This document shows positions 38,494 through 52,371 of a stretch of 54,749 nt of DNA, one piece after another; position 1 is the stretch's first letter; every line of letters begins with the position of its first letter. A program made the position numbers and the translations under genes. The notes below the pieces were generated by a model that did not search any database, was not told the DNA's origin, and saw nothing but the letters and a program-made list of their open reading frames with translations. Source of the DNA: Candidatus Delongbacteria bacterium (lineage in GTDB: Bacteria; UBA4055); NCBI GenBank assembly GCA_016937995.1, contig JAFGVM010000089.1, forward strand, positions 1 to 54,749, read 5' to 3'.

Positions 38494-41400
38494 ATGTGGT
38501 ACCGAATGTCATTGAAAAGAATTTTCATATTATTTTTAATATTTGTCATTGTTTTGAATGCAGAAGATCTGGCTGATCGTATTAAGCAGTATAATGCAAA
38601 GCAGATCACTATGACAACAGCCCAGGAAATGAATATTGTGATCTCTGAGGATGGTCAGTCAATTTTATTTTCGTCTAACATGAACGGGAATTATGATATT
38701 TTCCGTAAAGATCTTATTTCAGAAGAGACAACTCAGATCACAGAAGCTCCGGGTAATGAATATCCACAATTTATTTATGATGATGATCTTTATTTTATAT
38801 CTGATGCTACAGACATCTACGGTAATATCTATCTTAGAGATCTGAAAGGTAAAAATGAGGAGATCATATATCTCAATAAAGGTGAAGAAAAGAATCCGGT
38901 CATCAATGAAAAAGCTATCATTTTTTCAAAAAAGACGGACAAGTATAGATTTTACAGCTTTGATATAAAAAAGAAGAAAGTTCAACTGATAAAAGGTGCT
39001 GAAGGTCGCAGGATCGTTTTCTCTTCAGACGGAAAACAAGCTGTGTTTGTTTCAAATAAAGATGAGAGCGGATACAATATTTTATATAAATGCAGTTATG
39101 AGAAAGGTTTATTCAAAGATGTCGAGCAGATTTCATTCGGGGCAATGATAATCAACGGAGTGGATATTTCGACTGATGGAAGTACAGTAGTATACTCAGC
39201 TATCAAGTCCGATACGGATAATAACGGCGTTATGAATATTAACGATAATTCAGTTCTCTATAAGATATCGTTTAACGGGAATGGAACAGTTCAATTCCAA
39301 TTAACACCTGAAAATTATTCATCTAAAGCACCGAAAATATCTTCTTCAGATAATATTTATTTCATTTCGGACAGGAGTGGTAATGATGATGTATGGATGT
39401 GCAATATTGATGGAGTTATCCCGAAAGAAGAAAATTATATGTCTCAAAGGTCTGTAGCAGATTTTTTATTTCAAGAGTTCAATGCTAAAAAAGTTTTGAA
39501 CGAGGGTTCAAGTATAAACTTAAAAGAAGAGAATGAGCTTCTGGATAAATCTTTACTGAGTTATAACAGGATACTATCACTTTTTTCAGCAGATAAAGAT
39601 AAACTGCTGGAAGTTTATTACAAAATGGCAGAGATCTATGAGATCCAGAAACAATTTGAAAAAGCAGAGTCGATCTACAGATTGATCCAGTCAAGATATA
39701 TTGATGATAAAAAAGTATCTGAAAAAGCCAATTTTTTTAAAAAGTTAACCGAGTTAAAAAGGAAAGGGATCAGAACTGACAGTTACGGATTCGAGCTGGA
39801 AGAACATATAAACAACCTGAAAGAGATGACCGTAAATTGTGAAGATGAAATTTTAGTTCAGAGTATTTATATCAGTATTGGAAAAATCTATTTCGACCTA
39901 GGTCAGTATTCAACGGCAAATAATTATTTTATCTCTGCAAGAGGAAAAGGGAATTCAGAATCTTACTACTGGCAGGCAAAAACAGCATTAGTATCAGGTA
40001 ATTCAAAATCAGCCGGATCCTTTCTTGAAAAAGCAATTGAAAGTACAAGTTCAAATGATCTGAAAGAAAAATACATTAGGGAATATTTTACATCGGGAGA
40101 GGATCTAGAGGGCAGAACTAAAAAGATCCGGAGTGTTCTATCAAACAAAGATCTTCCAAGTGAGATCAGATCTTACGGGAATTTGATCCTGGGTGATATG
40201 CTTGATAATATTGAGTTGAAACTTGAATACTATAATGTTGTAAAACAGTTTTATGTTGATGATCCTGAAAATATTTTAAAGAAAAAATTCTCTGCTGCTG
40301 CTGATCTTAAACTTGCCCGGCTATATACAGATAATCGTATGAACACAGAAGCAGAAGGTGTTTACAAATATTCAATAGACAATTATTCTGGAATAGATTA
40401 CGATTTTTATACGATCAATGCAGTAAAAGACCTGTCAAACCTATACCTGAATCAGGCTGATGAATATCTTAAAGCAGGAAAAAATGAAAATGCATTACTT
40501 ATTTACTATAAGGCTTTCGATCTGGATAGGGAGAATATTGTAACACTTCGGGGTATGGCAGATTCTTATAATTCTCTTGGAAAGATCGATGAGATAATAC
40601 GGTTCTTTACAGTTGAATATGAGAAGGATGTCAACAGCAGCTTTATGAACTATGCACTTGGATATGCCTATTCACTTAAAGCTATTAGCTCAAAAGAATA
40701 TCTCAGTCCACTGATAAATCTTTCAATAAATCTTATAGAGAGATCACTTGAACTGGAATCAAATAATAAATATGCATATCTGACATTAAGCTATGATTAT
40801 GAGGCATTATTCCATCTTAGGAATATTCAGGAAGATGAGATAAAGAAACAGAATATCTTGCTAAAGGGAGTTAATTACATTGTCGGTCCAGTGAAATTTT
40901 TACTTTCTACTATCAATCTGCTTGAAGATGATAATGTGGATTATCTTGATAAGACTATAAACACTTTGAACAAAGGTCTGGCAATAAGTAATATTATATC
41001 GGACAGGGATCTTTATCTCAAAATGACATTGAACCTTGCGAACAACTATTATAACCTCGGTGAATTCGGAAGGAAGAACGCTCTTGAAAAATATCAGGTC
41101 ATACTTGATAATGATTTCAAGTTCACTTCATTACAACAGAAAGCGATCATCTATGAAAAAATTGGGCACTGTCATTTCACACTTGGTAATGATGAGGCTG
41201 AGGAATACTATGAAAAAGCGATCGGGCTCTACAGATCATTGAACGATAGAGAGAGTGAGATCAGAGTATCAATGAGGAACGCATTATATTATTTGTCCAT
41301 GAAAGACAAAGAGGGAGACTTCATAGGAGGGTCAGATGCTTCTGAAAAGTATAATGATATTGTAGTGAAATTGAAAAGTGAAGGAAAGGATGATATTGTC

Positions 41401-44400
41401 AGGCTTCTTCAAAGGAACAGTGCATTTGCCCAGTTCATTGATGATGAATATGGAAAGAGTGCTGATATACTTCACGATCTACTGGCTGAATACAACAAAG
41501 ATGATCTAAGTTCAGAGAGCGAGGGTAATTACATAATTCTGACTTTACTTGGATTAGATATACCTGTATGGCAGCTGAACATAAGTCTGGGTTCAATGTA
41601 TCCTGAAGGGTTCAACAGTGACTCAGAGATCGCATTTCTATACTCACTTCAAGCTTCAAATTATTTCAAACTAAAAGATTTTTTCACTGTGGAAGAATTT
41701 TTGAATAAAAAGCTGGCATACTTCGAAGGTAAGAATAACAGACTTGCAGTCAGTCTTGTTCAAAACAGACTTGGAATGCTTTATTACTACAAAGGTGATT
41801 ACAGCAAAAGTATTTCACACTTTAAAAATTCCAATGAGATCTGTATTGATCTAGAACTTTACAATGTGATCATAACAAACAAGAACAATATTTTAAAAGC
41901 ATTAGCCAGGATCAAAAAAATTGATAGCAGGCTGATAGAAAAGTATAATATAGCGATATCAGATACTTCAACAAACTCCTTTCCTAAAGGAATTATTGAG
42001 AAATATCCCAAAGCTGTTAATCAAAACATCAAAGGTGTGCTAAAATACCGTATATCCAGATACTTAAGTAATTCTATTTCTCCTGCAGATCAGTATAAAA
42101 GCCTGACGTACCTTTTAAGCAGTGAAGAATATTTCTCGAGCGGGATAGCCATGCTCAAAGAGAAAAAGAAATTAAATAAGGATGAAAAAGTCTTACTATC
42201 CTCAATGCTATATAACAGAGCTGTGATAAATATTGAAACGGATGATAGAGTTTCGGCTAAACAATATATGGATGAAGGTATTAAACTTGCGGAAGAATCA
42301 GGAGACAGGCTTATTCTTTGGAGATTTTACATGAAATCCGGGGATCTCTCTGATAATGATCCGATAGAATTTTATTTGAAAGCTGAAAGAACATTGTCAG
42401 AATATCTTCCATCTACAGATGACTATGAGATGATCACAAGCTGGCAGGATGATATAAGACCGCTATATGACAGAATAATAAAGTATTATATATCGAAGAA
42501 ACAAATATCCCAGGCATTGAACTACTCTGAAAGATATAAGAAAAAAATGATGCTTGATTACTACTCAAGCAGATATCTCAGTTATAAAGAACAATTGCAT
42601 AAGATCCACATAACAAAGATCCGGTATAACACTACCGAGATCATAAGATATAATTCAGAAATTGACAGGCTGAAAAATAAAGATTCAGAGAAATATGCTG
42701 AAAAGATAAGTGATTATGAAGGGAAAGCAGACAGATATACCAAAGAATTAAAAGACATCTATAGCCAAATAAAGAACGATAATGATAACAGATTACTTCA
42801 ATTTGTTTCGATAGATGATATCGCTTTTGATGATATTGATGAAATACTGGATGAGGATAATGTTATAATATCTTTCTATTCCTTTGAAGATCAAACCTGT
42901 ATTTTCCTCAGAAATGATCTGTCAACAAGTTGTAAAATAGTAAAAAAGGATAATGAACTTTTAAATTCACTCAAGGATTATTTTAACGGGAATCCTGATA
43001 AGGATATCTATCTAAAAATATATGATCATTACATCAGACCTTTCGAGAAAGAGATAAGCGGGAAAGATCATGTGTATATCGTTCCCGATTTTGATGAAAC
43101 TGTAATGTTGCCTTTTGTTACTTCTGTGAACATGACCAATAAAGAAATTGAACCATCTTTCTCAAAATTACCTACAATTTCGTCACTTGGAATGATAGAT
43201 GAAAATAAAAATATCAACTACTCTGAGTTAAAGAATATATCAGAGATAAAAGAAATTTCCGAGGTTAAGAATTTATTTGAGAACGGTGGATTTATATATT
43301 TGGACAAATATTTAAACATAGGAAGCAAGAATTCTCTGGAAAATTATTTTAATGTCGGGAAAGATAATTTAAAGGTCAGTGAATTTCTAAAATATAAGAT
43401 CCCTGCATACGGGGTTTTGTTAAAAGGATTCGATAAATTTCCGGAACCAAGTGATTATTTCATGCTTGTGAACTCACTGATCTATTCTGGTGCTCAATCA
43501 ATAATACTGCCAATGGCAAAAACTTCAGGTAATGGAATAGACAGTCTGGTTATTAATTCTTTTAAAAAATTAGACGAGTATGATCTTGATGAAGTATTGG
43601 CTTCATGTAAAAGTGCAGGTTCCTGCGGAGATCTTGAAATATTCGGTTCAATTGGAATGAATGCAAGAGAGCAGACGAATTTTGCAAGTGATAATCTTCA
43701 AAATTTAGTGGTAAACGGGATCAGGAATTACAAAAGTACTGTCTATGAAAAAGCATCATCCTACTTTGCACAAGCTTTGTTGATGGCAAGAAAGATCAAA
43801 GACAAGAAGCAGGAATTAAATATTTTGGGCACTATAATTTCATCCTACTCAAACTTTAATGATTTTAAGAACGCAATAAAGTACGGAAAAGAACTTTTAG
43901 TTTTTGCGGAGCAAAATAATTTGGAAGAACAGATCATTAAAGCTTATGACAGTATTTCAAAGGATTATTTCAGGTCAGCAGATTATGACAGCAGTGCATC
44001 TTATCAGAATAAAATCCTTGATTACATTTCAGAGAATGATATTAAGCAGAAACTGAAAAGTTATAATATGCTTTCTTCAATATATGCAAGGAAAGGACAT
44101 TTTGAAAAAAGTATAAGCTATCAAAAAAAGTATCTTGAGACAGGTAGACTTATATCATCGGGTGAATTGGATTCATTAAGCAGTTCTCTCAACGTAAGAA
44201 GTTCTGAAGTTCTTTTCAATTCACTAAAATCGATATTGGTAAATTATTATAAGGCTGAAAAAATAGACTCAGCTTTAAGTGTCTACAATATTGTTAAGTC
44301 CAATTCAGAAATATTCAAGAGTATCCCTGGATCTTCTATGGCAGACCTGTTTGAATCGGTAGGGTTGTGTTATTTTAAGAAATCGTTCTATGGAAATGCT

Positions 44401-46500
44401 GAAGAATTCTATAAAAAATCACTTTCAATGGTCGAAAGTAACTCAGAAAAAGCTTCACTTTATCAAAATCTGGCTGACCTTTATTATAAATCAGATAAAC
44501 TTTCTCTCTCATTGAAAATGCTGTCAAATGCTGACATGCTTTTAAGTGACAGTGACAATGCGGGAAAGATGAAAATAAACAATACAAGAAGTCTAATTGA
44601 AGTAAAACTGGGCAATATACCATCAGCTTTAACATATTCTTATAATTCTCTTGAAAGGTCTATTGAGTCCAAGAATAAATTCGAGGAAAGTATTGCAAGG
44701 GTTAATCTTGCTAAGATACTTATTATGGCGAATGAGATCGATAAAGCCGAGATCAATCTGAAATTAAGTTCTCAGCTTGCAACTGAGACCAATAACAAGA
44801 GTGCGTTAATATCTTCTGAATTTTACAAGGGGATGATTCTTTCAGAGCATAAATTGAAATTTGATGAAGCATTAAATAAATTTGAGAATTCTTTGAAATT
44901 GTCTCAGGAGGGTTCTGATAAGTTCTTTGAAGCAAGATCCTTGTATCAGATCGGAATGATATACTATGATAAACAAAACACTGAAAACAGCTACTATTAT
45001 CTGGATCAATGTTCTCAATTAGCAGAGAAGTACGATATTAATGATATCTATTACATGTCTGAACGTAATATTGCTGAATTAAAATTCAAGAACGGTTCAC
45101 TGGACTTACAAAGATTGAATAAGGTTATTTCAAAGATCGAAGATGATATTTTATTCAGGTCGGAAAGTCCTCTTAATGTTTCTTTAATGATGATCGTGGA
45201 AAGGATCTATGATATTGCTGTTGCGGAGCTTTTTAAAAGAGGAGATATAAGTTCAGCTTTAACTATGATCCAAGAGAAAGATCATATAAGTGCACAAAAT
45301 GACATTAATTATTTCAGCTATGAAAGACATAATACTGTATTTAAGATCAAAGACAATATCAGAAAGCTTTACTCAGAAAAAATATCACTTAGATTGCAGG
45401 ATAAACCATATTCTCAAGTTGAAGGTCTGATATCAGCTGAGAAGCAAAAATATGAGAGTAGTGTAAAAAATACGGTCTACGATTATAAGAATAATATTTA
45501 TATGCTCAGTCAGTTGCAGAAAGGGTTGGGCAACGAAGATGTTATTCTCGTTTTTGCACCTTTCGATGAAGATTTAAATATCATTGTCATTTCAAACAAA
45601 ATCTCTACGGTTCAAAAAGGGAAATTAAAAGATACTTATACGGAGAATATTTTAGACCGGATCGAGAACAGATCTGATCTAAAGGAACAGGCAAAGTTGG
45701 CTTATAATGATATTTTTTCAGCACCGGTATTAAATATGATACAGGATAAAAAGGATTTATTTATTTACTCATCAGGCTCGTTAAAGAATTTCCCGTTCGA
45801 TCTGTTGTTCGACGGGCAAAAGCATCTCATAGAAAAATATAATATTTCAGAGATAAATACGATTTCGCCGGTCAAAGTCGAAGATTTCCAGTTTGCCAAA
45901 AGCATATCATTCGTGAATCCTTTCTCATCTGCTAGTGAACTGGTTTATGCAGATAGAGAGTACGAATCATTACAATGGGAAAATAAGAGTTCAAATTCAC
46001 TTATACAGAAAAATGCCACAGAGATCAATCTATACAACACTTTTAAAGATGATTATTCTTTGTACCACTTTCCAAATCATACCTATTCTCTGAGCAAAGA
46101 CTCAATGAACGTTTCAGGTATGACAAGTTATATCCAGCTTTCCGCCGACAGTAAAAATGACGGTAAATATTCATGGAACGAAATATTGAATAAATCTTAT
46201 ACTGATAAAGATATTATTCTGTCAGGATGTGACAGTGGTGGTAAAATGGGATTTGACCATTCTGCTTATTTTGATATTGCAGGAGCTTTTGAGATCTCTG
46301 GAGCAAAGAGTGTCGTTTCTAGCAGATGGAAGACAGATGATCTTGGTGCTGCTGTTCTGATGAAAAGGTATTTCAGGTATCTCGGTAATGGTTCCAGCAG
46401 GATCGAGGCTTTGAGTAACGCTAAGAGAGATGTGATCAAGTATTTTAATGATTATCCGTACTACTGGGCAGGTTTTAAACTGTCGGGACGTGTGTTTTAA
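38494..46500 (+). CDS. giant exported beta-propeller/TPR/CHAT-protease protein
   Basis: 2668 residues; ATG 38506 (four residues shorter) is an equally good start, and neither has a clear SD. A signal peptide (SLKRIFILFLIFVIVLNA) is followed by a TolB/PD40-like propeller (about 45-310; repeats such as ILFSSNMNGNYDIFRKD and NIYFISDRSGNDDVWMCN) and a long TPR array (~350-1340). A coiled coil leads to a CHAT-like domain lacking its dyad (~1440-1730), then a second TPR array (~1745-2290) and a C-terminal CHAT domain (~2345-2668). The last has the caspase-like dyad: His2529 in YHFPNHT and Cys2579 in ILSGCDSGG, plus SGAKSVVSSRW. CHAT domains are clan CD cysteine proteases regulated through repeat domains. 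Export means it would act in the periplasm or on the surface. No substrate gene is evident nearby. Confidence 0.85.
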   Translation: MWYRMSLKRIFILFLIFVIVLNAEDLADRIKQYNAKQITMTTAQEMNIVISEDGQSILFSSNMNGNYDIFRKDLISEETTQITEAPGNEYPQFIYDDDLYFISDATDIYGNIYLRDLKGKNEEIIYLNKGEEKNPVINEKAIIFSKKTDKYRFYSFDIKKKKVQLIKGAEGRRIVFSSDGKQAVFVSNKDESGYNILYKCSYEKGLFKDVEQISFGAMIINGVDISTDGSTVVYSAIKSDTDNNGVMNINDNSVLYKISFNGNGTVQFQLTPENYSSKAPKISSSDNIYFISDRSGNDDVWMCNIDGVIPKEENYMSQRSVADFLFQEFNAKKVLNEGSSINLKEENELLDKSLLSYNRILSLFSADKDKLLEVYYKMAEIYEIQKQFEKAESIYRLIQSRYIDDKKVSEKANFFKKLTELKRKGIRTDSYGFELEEHINNLKEMTVNCEDEILVQSIYISIGKIYFDLGQYSTANNYFISARGKGNSESYYWQAKTALVSGNSKSAGSFLEKAIESTSSNDLKEKYIREYFTSGEDLEGRTKKIRSVLSNKDLPSEIRSYGNLILGDMLDNIELKLEYYNVVKQFYVDDPENILKKKFSAAADLKLARLYTDNRMNTEAEGVYKYSIDNYSGIDYDFYTINAVKDLSNLYLNQADEYLKAGKNENALLIYYKAFDLDRENIVTLRGMADSYNSLGKIDEIIRFFTVEYEKDVNSSFMNYALGYAYSLKAISSKEYLSPLINLSINLIERSLELESNNKYAYLTLSYDYEALFHLRNIQEDEIKKQNILLKGVNYIVGPVKFLLSTINLLEDDNVDYLDKTINTLNKGLAISNIISDRDLYLKMTLNLANNYYNLGEFGRKNALEKYQVILDNDFKFTSLQQKAIIYEKIGHCHFTLGNDEAEEYYEKAIGLYRSLNDRESEIRVSMRNALYYLSMKDKEGDFIGGSDASEKYNDIVVKLKSEGKDDIVRLLQRNSAFAQFIDDEYGKSADILHDLLAEYNKDDLSSESEGNYIILTLLGLDIPVWQLNISLGSMYPEGFNSDSEIAFLYSLQASNYFKLKDFFTVEEFLNKKLAYFEGKNNRLAVSLVQNRLGMLYYYKGDYSKSISHFKNSNEICIDLELYNVIITNKNNILKALARIKKIDSRLIEKYNIAISDTSTNSFPKGIIEKYPKAVNQNIKGVLKYRISRYLSNSISPADQYKSLTYLLSSEEYFSSGIAMLKEKKKLNKDEKVLLSSMLYNRAVINIETDDRVSAKQYMDEGIKLAEESGDRLILWRFYMKSGDLSDNDPIEFYLKAERTLSEYLPSTDDYEMITSWQDDIRPLYDRIIKYYISKKQISQALNYSERYKKKMMLDYYSSRYLSYKEQLHKIHITKIRYNTTEIIRYNSEIDRLKNKDSEKYAEKISDYEGKADRYTKELKDIYSQIKNDNDNRLLQFVSIDDIAFDDIDEILDEDNVIISFYSFEDQTCIFLRNDLSTSCKIVKKDNELLNSLKDYFNGNPDKDIYLKIYDHYIRPFEKEISGKDHVYIVPDFDETVMLPFVTSVNMTNKEIEPSFSKLPTISSLGMIDENKNINYSELKNISEIKEISEVKNLFENGGFIYLDKYLNIGSKNSLENYFNVGKDNLKVSEFLKYKIPAYGVLLKGFDKFPEPSDYFMLVNSLIYSGAQSIILPMAKTSGNGIDSLVINSFKKLDEYDLDEVLASCKSAGSCGDLEIFGSIGMNAREQTNFASDNLQNLVVNGIRNYKSTVYEKASSYFAQALLMARKIKDKKQELNILGTIISSYSNFNDFKNAIKYGKELLVFAEQNNLEEQIIKAYDSISKDYFRSADYDSSASYQNKILDYISENDIKQKLKSYNMLSSIYARKGHFEKSISYQKKYLETGRLISSGELDSLSSSLNVRSSEVLFNSLKSILVNYYKAEKIDSALSVYNIVKSNSEIFKSIPGSSMADLFESVGLCYFKKSFYGNAEEFYKKSLSMVESNSEKASLYQNLADLYYKSDKLSLSLKMLSNADMLLSDSDNAGKMKINNTRSLIEVKLGNIPSALTYSYNSLERSIESKNKFEESIARVNLAKILIMANEIDKAEINLKLSSQLATETNNKSALISSEFYKGMILSEHKLKFDEALNKFENSLKLSQEGSDKFFEARSLYQIGMIYYDKQNTENSYYYLDQCSQLAEKYDINDIYYMSERNIAELKFKNGSLDLQRLNKVISKIEDDILFRSESPLNVSLMMIVERIYDIAVAELFKRGDISSALTMIQEKDHISAQNDINYFSYERHNTVFKIKDNIRKLYSEKISLRLQDKPYSQVEGLISAEKQKYESSVKNTVYDYKNNIYMLSQLQKGLGNEDVILVFAPFDEDLNIIVISNKISTVQKGKLKDTYTENILDRIENRSDLKEQAKLAYNDIFSAPVLNMIQDKKDLFIYSSGSLKNFPFDLLFDGQKHLIEKYNISEINTISPVKVEDFQFAKSISFVNPFSSASELVYADREYESLQWENKSSNSLIQKNATEINLYNTFKDDYSLYHFPNHTYSLSKDSMNVSGMTSYIQLSADSKNDGKYSWNEILNKSYTDKDIILSGCDSGGKMGFDHSAYFDIAGAFEISGAKSVVSSRWKTDDLGAAVLMKRYFRYLGNGSSRIEALSNAKRDVIKYFNDYPYYWAGFKLSGRVF

Positions 46501-46799: not shown

Positions 46800-48791
46800 A
46801 TGAAGATAAGTCAAAAATTATCACTTGGTTTTTTTATAGCTGTTCTTTCAATATGGATCGCAATATATATTTCATTTGGATCACTAAGGAATGTTCATAA
46901 CGAGTATTTGAATATTCATAATGATATAATTCCGGGTACTTTAGCAATGTCAGAGATGGATGTTTCAACTCATGAAGCAGCCCACATGCTCACAGACTAT
47001 ATTAACTCCCGGGATAAAAATTATTTGGAACAGGTAAAAGCTACAGTTGAGTATATAAAAAAACAAGGCTATGAACATCAACAACATGAAATGCATTTGG
47101 GAGCTAAAGAAGAACTGGCTGCTAAGAAGCTTATCCTGAATATCAATAGATTTACAGAAGCAATAGAAAATGTTCTTGAATTGGTAGAAAGTAAAAAAGC
47201 AACTGATCAGATATTAAAACACGAGGTAGAGTTGATCCATCCCGTTTTGGATGAACTGAGTAAACAGCTTAAACATCATAAATCTATTCATTTAGCGGAA
47301 TTAAATGCAGCTCAGAAAATTCTTCATGAAGTTCATTCATCTGGAGAGAAATTTCTTATCTATGCAGGTATTATTATTTCTTTATTGTCGATCATAATTT
47401 CATATCTGATATCCAGATCTATTGTGAAACCTATCTCAAAGCTAAGATATGGAGTCGAAAGGATCGGAAACGGAGATCTCGACTTTCAAGTAGGAACAAA
47501 TTCAAAAGACGAAATAGGTGAACTTTCTAGAGCATTTGATGACATGACAATAGAGCTAAAGGCTTCAACAACTTCCATAGATAAACTTAATAAGGAAATA
47601 ATAGAAAGAGAACATGCGGAAAAAGCTCTCAGGGAAAATGAGGAAAAGCTTGCCCGTGCAAGGAAGATGGAATCCCTGGGTTTACTTGCAGGAGGAGTTG
47701 CACATGATCTTAACAATGTTCTCTCCGGTGTGGTCAGTTATCCTGAGTTATTGTTAATGAAACTTCCAAAAGACCATGAAATGAGAAAGCATTTGGAACT
47801 TATTCATAAAAGTGGCCTTAACGCAAGTGCAATAGTAAATGATCTTATAACGATTGGACGGGGTATTGCGATCGCAAAAGTTCCTTTAAATCTGAATAAT
47901 GTTATTGAAAATTATTTAGATTCTTCTGAGTTTAAAAGGATAAAACAACTTCATTCGATGGTTTCAGTGAATACAAGTTTGAACGAGGACCTGATGAATA
48001 TAAATGGTTCCGAAATTCACTTGAGAAAAGTCGTTATGAATTTACTGCTTAATGCTATTGAATCCATTGAAGGAGACGGAAAAGTATTTATCAGCACTAT
48101 GAACTGTTATCTGGATAAACCATTAAGAGCATATGATAATATAAACATCGGAGAATATGTTATACTTACAGTTGCTGACAACGGACCGGGAATACCAGCT
48201 GTTGACCTTGACAGGATTTTCGAACCGTTCTATACCAAGAAGTTAATGGGAAGAAGCGGTACCGGACTTGGTCTTTCAATTGTCTGGAATGTTGTTCAGG
48301 ACCTGAAAGGTTATATTGATATTCAAAGTACTTCAGGTGGTACTTCTTTCGACTTATATTTCCCTGTTTGCAGGAAAGATATAATTGAAGGTGATAAGAT
48401 TTTTAATATTGATGATTACAAGGGTAATGGGGAGTCAATTCTGATTATCGATGATATGGAAAATCAGAGAGAAATCACATCACATATTTTAGAAGCTTTT
48501 GATTATAAAGTGCATTCAGTACCAAGTGGTGAAGATGCTATTGAATATTTAAAAGAGAATTCGGTCGATCTGTTGATACTTGATATGATCATGGAGAAGG
48601 GCATGAACGGTAGAGAGACTTACGAGGAGATAATTAAGATCCATCCTGTGCAGAAAGCTGTTATCGTTAGCGGATATGCCGAGACCGAAGAGGTTAAGAA
48701 AGCACAGGATCTGGGTGCTGGTCGATTTGTTAAGAAGCCGTTGTCGTTGGAGAATATCGGGCAGGCGGTAAAAGAAGAACTTGCGAAGTAA
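46800..48791 (+). CDS. hybrid sensor histidine kinase with C-terminal receiver
   Basis: 663 residues. TM1 (about 10-28), a helical four-helix-bundle-like periplasmic sensor (about 30-180, His/Glu-rich), TM2 (about 183-205), HAMP (SIVKPISKLRYGVERIGNGDLD), a coiled coil, a HisKA region with phospho-acceptor His302 (GGVAHDLNNVLSG), and an HATPase domain (VADNGPGIP, FEPFYTKK, GTGLGLSIVW). The C-terminal REC domain has IIDDMENQ and phospho-acceptor Asp595 (LLILDMIM), with Lys in RFVKKPLS. The His box (AHDLNN) belongs to the PAS-less NtrB-like class whose partners are often sigma-54 activators; a separate output regulator must lie elsewhere. GGGGAGAG precedes the ATG at an acceptable distance. Confidence 0.93.
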   Translation: MKISQKLSLGFFIAVLSIWIAIYISFGSLRNVHNEYLNIHNDIIPGTLAMSEMDVSTHEAAHMLTDYINSRDKNYLEQVKATVEYIKKQGYEHQQHEMHLGAKEELAAKKLILNINRFTEAIENVLELVESKKATDQILKHEVELIHPVLDELSKQLKHHKSIHLAELNAAQKILHEVHSSGEKFLIYAGIIISLLSIIISYLISRSIVKPISKLRYGVERIGNGDLDFQVGTNSKDEIGELSRAFDDMTIELKASTTSIDKLNKEIIEREHAEKALRENEEKLARARKMESLGLLAGGVAHDLNNVLSGVVSYPELLLMKLPKDHEMRKHLELIHKSGLNASAIVNDLITIGRGIAIAKVPLNLNNVIENYLDSSEFKRIKQLHSMVSVNTSLNEDLMNINGSEIHLRKVVMNLLLNAIESIEGDGKVFISTMNCYLDKPLRAYDNINIGEYVILTVADNGPGIPAVDLDRIFEPFYTKKLMGRSGTGLGLSIVWNVVQDLKGYIDIQSTSGGTSFDLYFPVCRKDIIEGDKIFNIDDYKGNGESILIIDDMENQREITSHILEAFDYKVHSVPSGEDAIEYLKENSVDLLILDMIMEKGMNGRETYEEIIKIHPVQKAVIVSGYAETEEVKKAQDLGAGRFVKKPLSLENIGQAVKEELAK

Positions 48792-49037: not shown

Positions 49038-49991
49038 TTATACCCATCCGATGAACCAGTAAACAACCGGCAAGGTCACAGCGCTTAATAGCGTTGTTAA
49101 GAAAACATTTTTCGCTGCGAGTTCTGGATCTGATTTGAACTCAGTCGCAATAATAACGATCATAGCCATACACGGCATAGCTGATTGGAGTACGACAACA
49201 GATTTTGCAGTAATATCCATCTCAAACCCAAATAAATATTCAGCGAATTTTATTACATATAGCAAAATAAAAGGTGCTATTATCATTTTGTTGATACTTA
49301 GAACATAGATCTGTAATTCTTTGATCGTTCCTTTGATACTTATCCTGCTCAGCATCATTCCGATATATATCATTGAAAGGTAAAGAGTTGTTCCACCGAG
49401 ACCACTTAAGGTTTTATCCAGTATATAAGGTAGTTTAAATTTTACTAGAAAAGCGAGAATTCCCAGAGAAAAAGCAATAGTATTAGGATTGATAAGATGC
49501 TTTAGACTTTCGGTCAATTTGATCTTTTTATTCTTGTTAAATAACATTACACCAACCGTCCAAAGCATTGAGCTTAACACAATATGATATACAACTGCAA
49601 ATAAAAGACCTTTTCCTCCAGGGAAGAGAGAATCTAATAGTGGATATCCGAGAAAAGCAATATTGCCGAAAGTTGTATGTATCCTGTGAATAGTATAAGC
49701 ATGCGATTCCAGTTTCATGATCTTTGCAGAGATCGTTGCCACAAAGAGTAAAAGGAACATAGAGACATATGCGAATATCAAAACGAACAATGAACTTTCA
49801 AGTACTTCCATCGAAAAATCGAATTTTGATAATGAAGTAAATATCATCAAAGGGAGGGTGATCTTAATCACGAGCTTATTCAACCCCAGAGAAAAACCTT
49901 CAGGGAAGAATTTGAATTTCGCTGTGATGTATCCGATAAGGGCAAGAAGACCTAATATTGTAATTTGATTTATAATGATCTGGTTTTGCAT
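49038..49991 (-). CDS. AEC-family (auxin efflux carrier-like) transporter
   Basis: A 317-residue inner-membrane protein with ten predicted segments in two five-helix halves, as in the bile-acid/AEC fold. Typical features: LIGYITAKFKFFPEGFSLGLNKLVIKITLPLMIFTSL (residues ~18-54), GNIAFLGYPLLDSLFPGGKG (~109-128), and the late SAMPCMAMIVIIATEFKSDPELAAKNVFLTTLLSAVTLP (~268-306). Bacterial AEC proteins export or exchange organic acids such as malate or malonate; the substrate cannot be told here. SD is weak (AGAGAATACA). It stands alone, convergent with the kinase. Confidence 0.92.
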   Translation of the reverse strand: MQNQIIINQITILGLLALIGYITAKFKFFPEGFSLGLNKLVIKITLPLMIFTSLSKFDFSMEVLESSLFVLIFAYVSMFLLLFVATISAKIMKLESHAYTIHRIHTTFGNIAFLGYPLLDSLFPGGKGLLFAVVYHIVLSSMLWTVGVMLFNKNKKIKLTESLKHLINPNTIAFSLGILAFLVKFKLPYILDKTLSGLGGTTLYLSMIYIGMMLSRISIKGTIKELQIYVLSINKMIIAPFILLYVIKFAEYLFGFEMDITAKSVVVLQSAMPCMAMIVIIATEFKSDPELAAKNVFLTTLLSAVTLPVVYWFIGWV

Positions 49992-50296: not shown

Positions 50297-51325
50297 ATGA
50301 ATATTAAAAAATCCCAATATTTGTTATTATTTATTTTCATTACTGGTATTTTATTTTCTGTATTTTCAGCAGAAAAAATATTTTGTGATCAATGTGAAAA
50401 TCTGATAAAACCCGGAACAAGTTATTTAACATCTAACGGAAAGATCTACTGCAGTGAAGAATGTTTTGAAAAAACTTTGCCACAGTGTGCAGTCTGTGGT
50501 GAACCTGTGAAAAATGGTTATACTCAGAACGGATCGAGTTATTGTAGTAAAGAATGTTTAATGACAACCTGGGATAGATGTGAGTTCTGTGGCAAAAGGG
50601 TTCAAAATGGTTATTATATCGGTAATAAACATGGTGCTTTCTTCTGCAGTGATTGTATGAAAAAGCCAAAATGTTATCTCTGTGGACATCCTGATGACTG
50701 CACAACTCTCTCTGACGGTAGACTTATTTGTCATAAATGCGAGAAAACTGCGATAATCAGTCCATCTGATGCAAGAGATATCTTTGATGAGGTCAGAATT
50801 AAGATGAAAGAAAAAATGGATCTGTCCACGGATCATATAATTGAGTTCAAACTGGTGAACATTCATGAATTGAGTGAAGAGTCTGAACTACAGTATACAA
50901 ATGAATTCATGGAACAGGGATTATTCGTTCATGAGGAAAGAACCAGAACATATACTAAAACTAAAACTTTATTTGGATTCGAATTTGGTAAAGAAATAAA
51001 AACAGAAATTATTAACAATTTCTCTATTTTAATGTTGTTTTCTTTAACTAAAGATAAATTTATCGAAGTTGCAGCTCATGAGCTCGCACATGACTGGATG
51101 CAGGAAAATTATCCCAATATCACTGATCTGAAAATATCAGAGGGATGGGCAGAATTTGTAGCATCTCAGGTCAATAATCATTATGGTAACTCACATATGA
51201 ACACACGTATGAAAGAGAATCCGGATCCTTTTTATGGAGAAGGATACAGGTATGTGGCAGGTTATGCAAAACTGCATGGTGTTTCTGGACTGTATAAAAT
51301 GTTTGCAGAGATGAATAAAAAATAA
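50297..51325 (+). CDS. exported LIM-like zinc-finger/DA1-like metallopeptidase
   Basis: 342 residues. A signal peptide (residues ~8-24, ending FSVFSA) is followed by about four tandem Cys-rich modules (residues ~29-150) with LIM-like CxxC...CxxxC spacing: CDQCENLI...CSEEC, CAVCGEPV...CSKEC, CEFCGKRV...CSDC and CYLCG...CHKC. The C-terminal half resembles the DA1 peptidase of plants: SILMLFSLTKDKFIEVAAHELAHDWMQ with HExxH at 261-265, and EGWAEFVASQVNNHYG with Glu282 and Glu286, then GYRYVAGYAKLHGVSGLY. DA1 is a ubiquitin-activated zinc peptidase; here the substrate must be extracytoplasmic. No SD is visible before the ATG. It stands alone. Confidence 0.8.
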   Translation: MNIKKSQYLLLFIFITGILFSVFSAEKIFCDQCENLIKPGTSYLTSNGKIYCSEECFEKTLPQCAVCGEPVKNGYTQNGSSYCSKECLMTTWDRCEFCGKRVQNGYYIGNKHGAFFCSDCMKKPKCYLCGHPDDCTTLSDGRLICHKCEKTAIISPSDARDIFDEVRIKMKEKMDLSTDHIIEFKLVNIHELSEESELQYTNEFMEQGLFVHEERTRTYTKTKTLFGFEFGKEIKTEIINNFSILMLFSLTKDKFIEVAAHELAHDWMQENYPNITDLKISEGWAEFVASQVNNHYGNSHMNTRMKENPDPFYGEGYRYVAGYAKLHGVSGLYKMFAEMNKK

Positions 51326-51386: not shown

Positions 51387-51413
51387 AAAAAAAGGGCGTA
51401 ATAAATTACGCCC
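51387..51413 (-). terminator. terminator after the isoaspartyl peptidase gene
   Basis: GGGCGTAAT/ATTACGCCC with a two-base loop, followed on the minus strand by seven T residues. Confidence 0.8.
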
Positions 51414-51447: not shown

Positions 51448-52371
51448 TTATTCCCATATCTTGACTTCAAAGATCCCTTTTGAAGTCGCTACCCCGCGGT
51501 ACATACCGAGTGTATTATACGGTAAAGAAAAATTCCCTTCCTTATCAACAGCGATAAGTCCACCGATTCCTTTTTTCAACACTTTATGTGTAACATATTC
51601 TGAAGCATCTTTTAAAGAAAGTCCTTTATACATCATTAAAGCATGAATATCAAAAGCGATCACATTTTTGATAAATTCTTCTCCTTCCCCTGTACATGAA
51701 ACAGCGCAGGTAGAATTATCAGCAAAAGTTCCGGCACCTATGACAGGAGAATCTCCGATACGGTCCCATTTTTTATTCGTCATACCTCCGGTAGATGTAG
51801 CAGCTGCAAGATCACCATAAATATCCAAAGCTACAGCTCCAACAGTTCCTTTAGGAGCAGCAGCGAATTCAGCATTATGGTCCAGAGATGTTTTATCTGA
51901 ACCTTGTACCAGTCTCCACTGCTCATATCTTTTCACAGTATCAAAATACTTTTTATTCTTGAATTTATATCCAAGTTCTTTCGCAAATTCTTCAGCTCCT
52001 TTTCCATTAAGAAAAACATATTTACTGTTGGACATCACATCTTTAGCGAGAGATACAGGATGTTGAATTCTTGTGATACCCGTGACAGCTCCGCATTGCC
52101 TGTTCTTACCGTCCATGATTGAAGCATCCATACTGTGACCACCGTCAAAAGTAAATACAGAACCTTTACCACAATTGAATAACGGACAGTCCTCGAACTT
52201 ATTAACTACAAGTTCCACAGTATTTAATGCAGTTTCCCCTTTTTTTAGGAGTTTGTTACCATATTTTAATATTTTTTCTAAAGCTTCAAAGTATAGTATT
52301 TTCTGATCTTCAGGTACAGTTGGAGGAATCGCTCCTGCACCACCATGTATTGCTAATGTATATTTTTTCAT
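51448..52371 (-). CDS. isoaspartyl peptidase / plant-type L-asparaginase
   Basis: A 307-residue N-terminal nucleophile hydrolase. The precursor starts YTLAIHGGAGAIPP and has NCGKGSVFTFDGGHSMDASIMDG in the alpha part. It is expected to cleave itself before Thr176 (KGTVGAVALD), which becomes the catalytic nucleophile; GGMTNKKWDRIGDSPVIGAGTFAD and CTGEGE line the substrate pocket. The family hydrolyses isoaspartyl dipeptides and asparagine, mainly for turnover of damaged peptides. No signal peptide, so cytoplasmic. AAGGATAG precedes the ATG. It is divergent from rarA. Confidence 0.94.
   Translation of the reverse strand: MKKYTLAIHGGAGAIPPTVPEDQKILYFEALEKILKYGNKLLKKGETALNTVELVVNKFEDCPLFNCGKGSVFTFDGGHSMDASIMDGKNRQCGAVTGITRIQHPVSLAKDVMSNSKYVFLNGKGAEEFAKELGYKFKNKKYFDTVKRYEQWRLVQGSDKTSLDHNAEFAAAPKGTVGAVALDIYGDLAAATSTGGMTNKKWDRIGDSPVIGAGTFADNSTCAVSCTGEGEEFIKNVIAFDIHALMMYKGLSLKDASEYVTHKVLKKGIGGLIAVDKEGNFSLPYNTLGMYRGVATSKGIFEVKIWE

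Follow-up and report, generated by a model that had tools for sequence, protein, structure and literature searches.

The plant growth regulator DA1 and the DAR proteins (PF12315), with the order UIM-LIM-LIM-like-peptidase, are the closest described systems to the bacterial protein analyzed here, with which they share LIM-like fingers directly before a gluzincin domain, the spacing between HExxH and the following glutamate, and kinship at the profile level. In plant DA1, whose motif is published as HEMMH-x15-EE, the LIM-like finger is required for activity, and the C274Y substitution in the third CxxC/H pair abolishes peptidase activity (PMC5322733). As reported by Dong et al. 2017 (PMC5322733), Roseiflexus proteins that contain four CxxC/H pairs are highly similar to DA1-family sequence; the paper cites Burroughs, Iyer and Aravind 2011 for the binuclear treble clefs of prokaryotes. 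Because Dong et al. already mention bacterial relatives of plant DA1, the combination of fingers and peptidase is not new in bacteria; it is known and widespread, and the present protein adds a member. Unlike the plant proteins, this member is predicted to be exported, has no Pfam UIM and no canonical LIM domain, and comes from a genome without a ubiquitin-family match. The Roseiflexus proteins, with prokaryotic fingers and a peptidase, belong to the same family; the Chloroflexota forms (the group of Roseiflexus) in the set collected here differ from the protein studied here in having no signal peptide and in lying elsewhere in the tree.

The gene is located in a 54,749-nucleotide stretch of DNA from a Candidatus Delongbacteria bacterium, the whole of which is referred to as the window. 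Its open reading frame starts with ATG, encodes 342 aa and occupies positions 50297-51325 of the forward strand, exactly as in a sequence-only reading made earlier, whose observation of an exported finger-bearing zinc peptidase at this place is confirmed. The signal peptide, MNIKKSQYLLLFIFITGILFSVFSA, can be read directly in this frame. The features are listed below.

50297..51325, forward strand: predicted exported LIM-like-finger / DA1-type metallopeptidase, 342 aa
50297..50371, forward strand: predicted Sec-type signal peptide, residues 1-25, without lipobox (sequence; hydrophobic N-terminus kept in homologues)
50384..50464, forward strand: Cys4 module 1 (C30, C33, C52, C56; invariant cysteines; hairpin then helix in the model)
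50486..50557, forward strand: Cys4 module 2 (C64, C67, C83, C87; invariant cysteines; model)
50579..50656, forward strand: Cys4 module 3 (C95, C98, C117, C120), first half of a LIM-like unit (invariant cysteines; model; profile-profile alignment)
50672..50740, forward strand: Cys4 module 4 (C126, C129, C145, C148) with DGRxIC, second half of the LIM-like unit (invariant cysteines; model; profile-profile alignment)
50852..51319, forward strand: DA1-like gluzincin domain, predicted, about residues 186-341 (Pfam, structure match, profile-profile alignment)
51077..51091, forward strand: HELAH, putative zinc/catalytic motif, residues 261-265 (sequence; alignment)
51140..51157, forward strand: EGWAEF, residues 282-287, with the putative third zinc ligand E282 at H265+17 (sequence; alignment)
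51233..51250, forward strand: YGEGYR C-terminal motif (alignment; YGxG(Y/F/L) in 81/89 of the relatives' set)

Conservation was assessed in an alignment of seven full-length proteins from the lineage (Delongbacteria and kin), comprising the window protein and six homologues with 45-73% identity to it. All 16 finger cysteines as well as H261, E262, H265 and E282 are invariant across this lineage, and the modules and motifs are therefore not a product of chance. Conservation within the finger array is highest in the final pair, which precedes the peptidase: C95, C98, C126, C129, C145 and C148 are also invariant in 12 diverse members. The wider relatives' set (n = 89) consists of the best 80 of 126 relatives found by scanning 84,980 genomes with one pattern, plus nine others; it was collected through the HExxH motif, so that the frequency of HExxH itself in it is no evidence.

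The window protein matches the DA1-like profile PF12315 with an E-value of 7e-4 and 19.5 bits, under the curated Pfam cut-off of 25 bits, and this match alone is insufficient because Peptidase_M1 scores nearly as well (18.0 bits); an NCBIfam search of the protein gave no meaningful match. A same-genus homologue reaches 32.1 bits, PF12315 matches occur at E <1 in 7/7 lineage members (best 9.5e-8) and at E <0.1 in 12/12 proteins of a broader selection (best 2.3e-21), and the cut-off is passed in four lineage genomes once frame pieces are combined. When the window's clade was aligned with LIM-bearing bacterial DA1 proteins by hhalign, several of the latter exceeding the DA1-like cut-off, the peptidase gave an E-value of 3e-39 over 181 columns, a kind of score that cysteine-rich profiles inflate, and the similarity spans the DGRxIC finger to YGEGYR near the C-terminus. 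The protein carries HExxH with a third-ligand glutamate 16-17 residues past the second histidine, HELAH-x16-E282 having the same spacing as HEMMH-x15-EE of plant DA1 when the second glutamate is counted (PMC5322733), and in 89/89 of the relatives' set a glutamate followed by G or A occurs some 14-20 residues C-terminal to that histidine. Since the similarity runs the whole length from finger to YGEGYR, the DA1-like assignment is settled: the window protein is, as judged from its sequence, a DA1-type peptidase and distantly related to plant DA1, as the sequence-only reading had proposed from its motifs.

In VIA-align, the best matches of the structural model are M1 aminopeptidases (E. coli PepN, Z 11.2, rmsd 3.0 over 146 residues), thermolysin gives Z 8.6, and the gluzincin match covers residues ~150-342, so that the peptidase domain is predicted to have the gluzincin fold of clan MA. 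The lead of M1 enzymes here and the near-equal Peptidase_M1 score would fit a generic exported gluzincin of M1 or thermolysin type with unrelated zinc ribbons, which resembles DA1 only in the HExxH...E motif. However, it is DA1-like and not M1 that passes the cut-off in the relatives, and similarity across the whole peptidase from the DGRxIC finger to YGEGYR is not expected from a motif coincidence. Moreover, M1 may lead VIA-align by default, because no solved plant DA1 was found when the PDB was searched by sequence, with either a LIM-bearing relative or the lineage profile as query. A generic gluzincin is thus considered improbable, and a DA1-type peptidase is the preferred assignment.

The AF2 model of the window protein (pLDDT 86.9) contains a hairpin-helix unit in each of the four modules, and its best Foldseek matches in the PDB are tandem LIM proteins, PINCH1 LIM4-5 followed by LMO2 (E 1.8e-4, probability 1.00), with low TM-scores that reflect agreement in local fold and not in overall arrangement. 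A structure prediction, which had been put forward as a check, thus returned LIM matches for the fingers by Foldseek and gluzincin matches by VIA-align. The finger profile aligns end-to-end with the LIM fingers of relatives in hhalign (E 2e-19, a value of the kind inflated by cysteine-rich profiles), and canonical LIM domains are present in these relatives (PF00412 at 1.5e-19 in L065/L011 and 1e-19 in L050). The LIM profile PF00412 itself has no match in the window protein and none anywhere in its genome; module 1 reads CxxC...CxxxC and not the LIM-type CxxC-HxxC first site, and C56 and C64 are separated by seven residues, the two-residue LIM spacer being absent. The profile comparison proposed in the sequence-only reading gave a PF12315 match under the cut-off in the window protein (19.5 bits) and over it in the same-genus homologue (32.1), and no PF00412 match in the window protein; its LIM-like fingers stand by structure and profile-profile alignment but fail the Pfam LIM profile. 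From sequence and model, the fingers of the window protein appear to be LIM-derived and not canonical LIM, and those of its clade are an unusual variant within the DA1-type family.

At the N-terminus, a short lysine-bearing n-region is followed by a single hydrophobic stretch that ends in small residues (VFSA), without a lipobox, and a like hydrophobic N-terminus is kept in 7/7 lineage members, in agreement with the signal peptide and export claimed earlier. An uncleaved membrane anchor that tethers the enzyme, or a misread start and a cytoplasmic enzyme, would also be compatible with a signal call that comes from a hydrophobicity heuristic, but the lysines in the short n-region, the one hydrophobic stretch and the VFSA end favour a cleaved Sec signal, and the same kind of N-terminus recurs in all seven lineage members, making either variant very unlikely. 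Beyond the lineage, a signal-like N-terminus was counted in 65/89 of the relatives' set by the same heuristic, not SignalP, with individual calls blurred by start-codon choice; the 12 Chloroflexota and two Nitrospirota proteins are all without it, as is the single cyanobacterial one. Export therefore seems usual in the DA1-type bacterial family and not peculiar to the window protein, and the exported design predominates in the bacterial sequences gathered. The plant-type hallmarks, UIM motifs and a ubiquitin system, are found in neither the window protein, which has no Pfam UIM match, nor its genome, in which a ubiquitin-family search was without match; the earlier reading had placed the protein outside the cytoplasm, where ubiquitin is absent. 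Because of the latter result, ubiquitin activation of the window protein is unlikely.

Given the kinship, motifs, conservation, signal-like N-terminus and predicted fold established above, the window protein is likely a Sec-exported DA1-like zinc endopeptidase that is gated by its fingers and acts on an envelope or secreted protein. Two histidines and a glutamate as zinc ligands, with a glutamate as base, are the standard catalytic reading of a gluzincin; here, zinc would be held by H261, H265 and E282, with E262 as the general base. Directly before the catalytic domain, four treble-clef-like, putatively zinc-binding modules of LIM/LIM-like derivation would present the protein substrate to it and keep the peptidase latent, a gating role suggested by analogy with plant DA1, which depends on ubiquitylation for its activation. 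The target would probably be an envelope or secreted protein because the enzyme is exported, a substrate class that follows from export only. The number of CxxC/H motifs varies widely among full-length relatives, from ~4 to 14, as for a tolerant scaffold, and the fingers might instead be structural, or a zinc or redox sensor, in an exported housekeeping peptidase. That role is unlikely, however, in view of the 16/16 cysteines invariant in the lineage, the last finger pair being the most conserved of the array in the 12 diverse members, and the loss of activity upon finger mutation in plant DA1 (PMC5322733). Among the relatives, the Omnitrophota proteins L046-L049 carry expanded finger arrays of 12 to 14 CxxC/H motifs before the same peptidase.

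One copy is present in the window's own genome, and the protein was found in 9/13 genomes of its family (a total that includes its own genome, a C-terminal portion and a split fragment) and in 0/48 other genomes at the sensitivity used, the nearest named relatives being Candidatus Delongbacteria bins. The 89-sequence relatives' set (best 80 of 126 plus nine) spans ~19 named phyla, which answers the earlier call for a taxonomic distribution; no relative was found on viral contigs. Prokaryotic LIM domains, as treated by Burroughs, Iyer and Aravind in 2011, are reportedly partners of membrane-associated peptidases. In a quick, unrooted tree with many weak branches and no plant sequence, the window protein groups with Lentisphaerota and Verrucomicrobiota (SH-aLRT 96); other groups are formed by LIM-bearing Zixibacteria/Ignavibacteria/Latescibacteria proteins and by Chloroflexota/Omnitrophota/Planctomycetota proteins. 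The Lentisphaerota/Verrucomicrobiota homologues L035-L038 share its clade and finger type at 38-46% identity and differ from it in lineage and gene neighbourhood. Zixibacteria, Latescibacteria, Ignavibacteria and Eisenbacteria proteins (L050, L065 and others) have a signal peptide, fingers, a DA1-like domain and YGxGxR as in the window protein, but several of them, unlike it, also contain canonical LIM domains (PF00412 matches reaching ~1e-19). An ancestral use of the LIM-peptidase design, as suggested in the sequence-only reading, is possible. More specifically, and as a tentative proposal that we would not yet lean on, finger-gated exported DA1-type proteolysis might be the older bacterial state, with ubiquitin activation added later in plants to a finger latency switch and the Delongbacteria/Lentisphaerae clade representing a rebuilt four-module version. 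With these proteins as small single-gene bacterial systems, one can ask whether control of a DA1-type peptidase may come from the fingers alone, in the absence of ubiquitin, a question that bears on how plant DA1 is switched on.

Upstream of the peptidase gene and divergent to it lies a Mem_trans (AEC-type) transporter gene (49038-49991, reverse strand), a homologue of which adjoins the peptidase gene in six genomes of the lineage; downstream and convergent lies an Asparaginase_2 (isoaspartyl-peptidase-like) gene (51448-52371, reverse strand), with a terminator-like hairpin by it at 51394-51413. Near the peptidase gene, promoter-like sites are no more frequent than expected by chance, and terminator-like sites exceed that expectation only slightly. 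A functional link to the neighbour genes was rejected, since the Mem_trans and asparaginase-family neighbours recur only within the window's own lineage and a different gene recurs beside the peptidase gene in Lentisphaerota; no conserved neighbour pointing to a substrate was found. Elsewhere in the window, a 2668-aa protein (38494-46500, forward strand) combines a PD40 beta-propeller at its N-terminus with many TPRs and, at its C-terminus, a caspase-like CHAT domain (2.6e-31), and is possibly a signal-transducing giant protease. The gene at 46800-48791 (forward strand) encodes a hybrid histidine kinase with a 4HB sensor, HAMP, HisKA, HATPase and a receiver domain.
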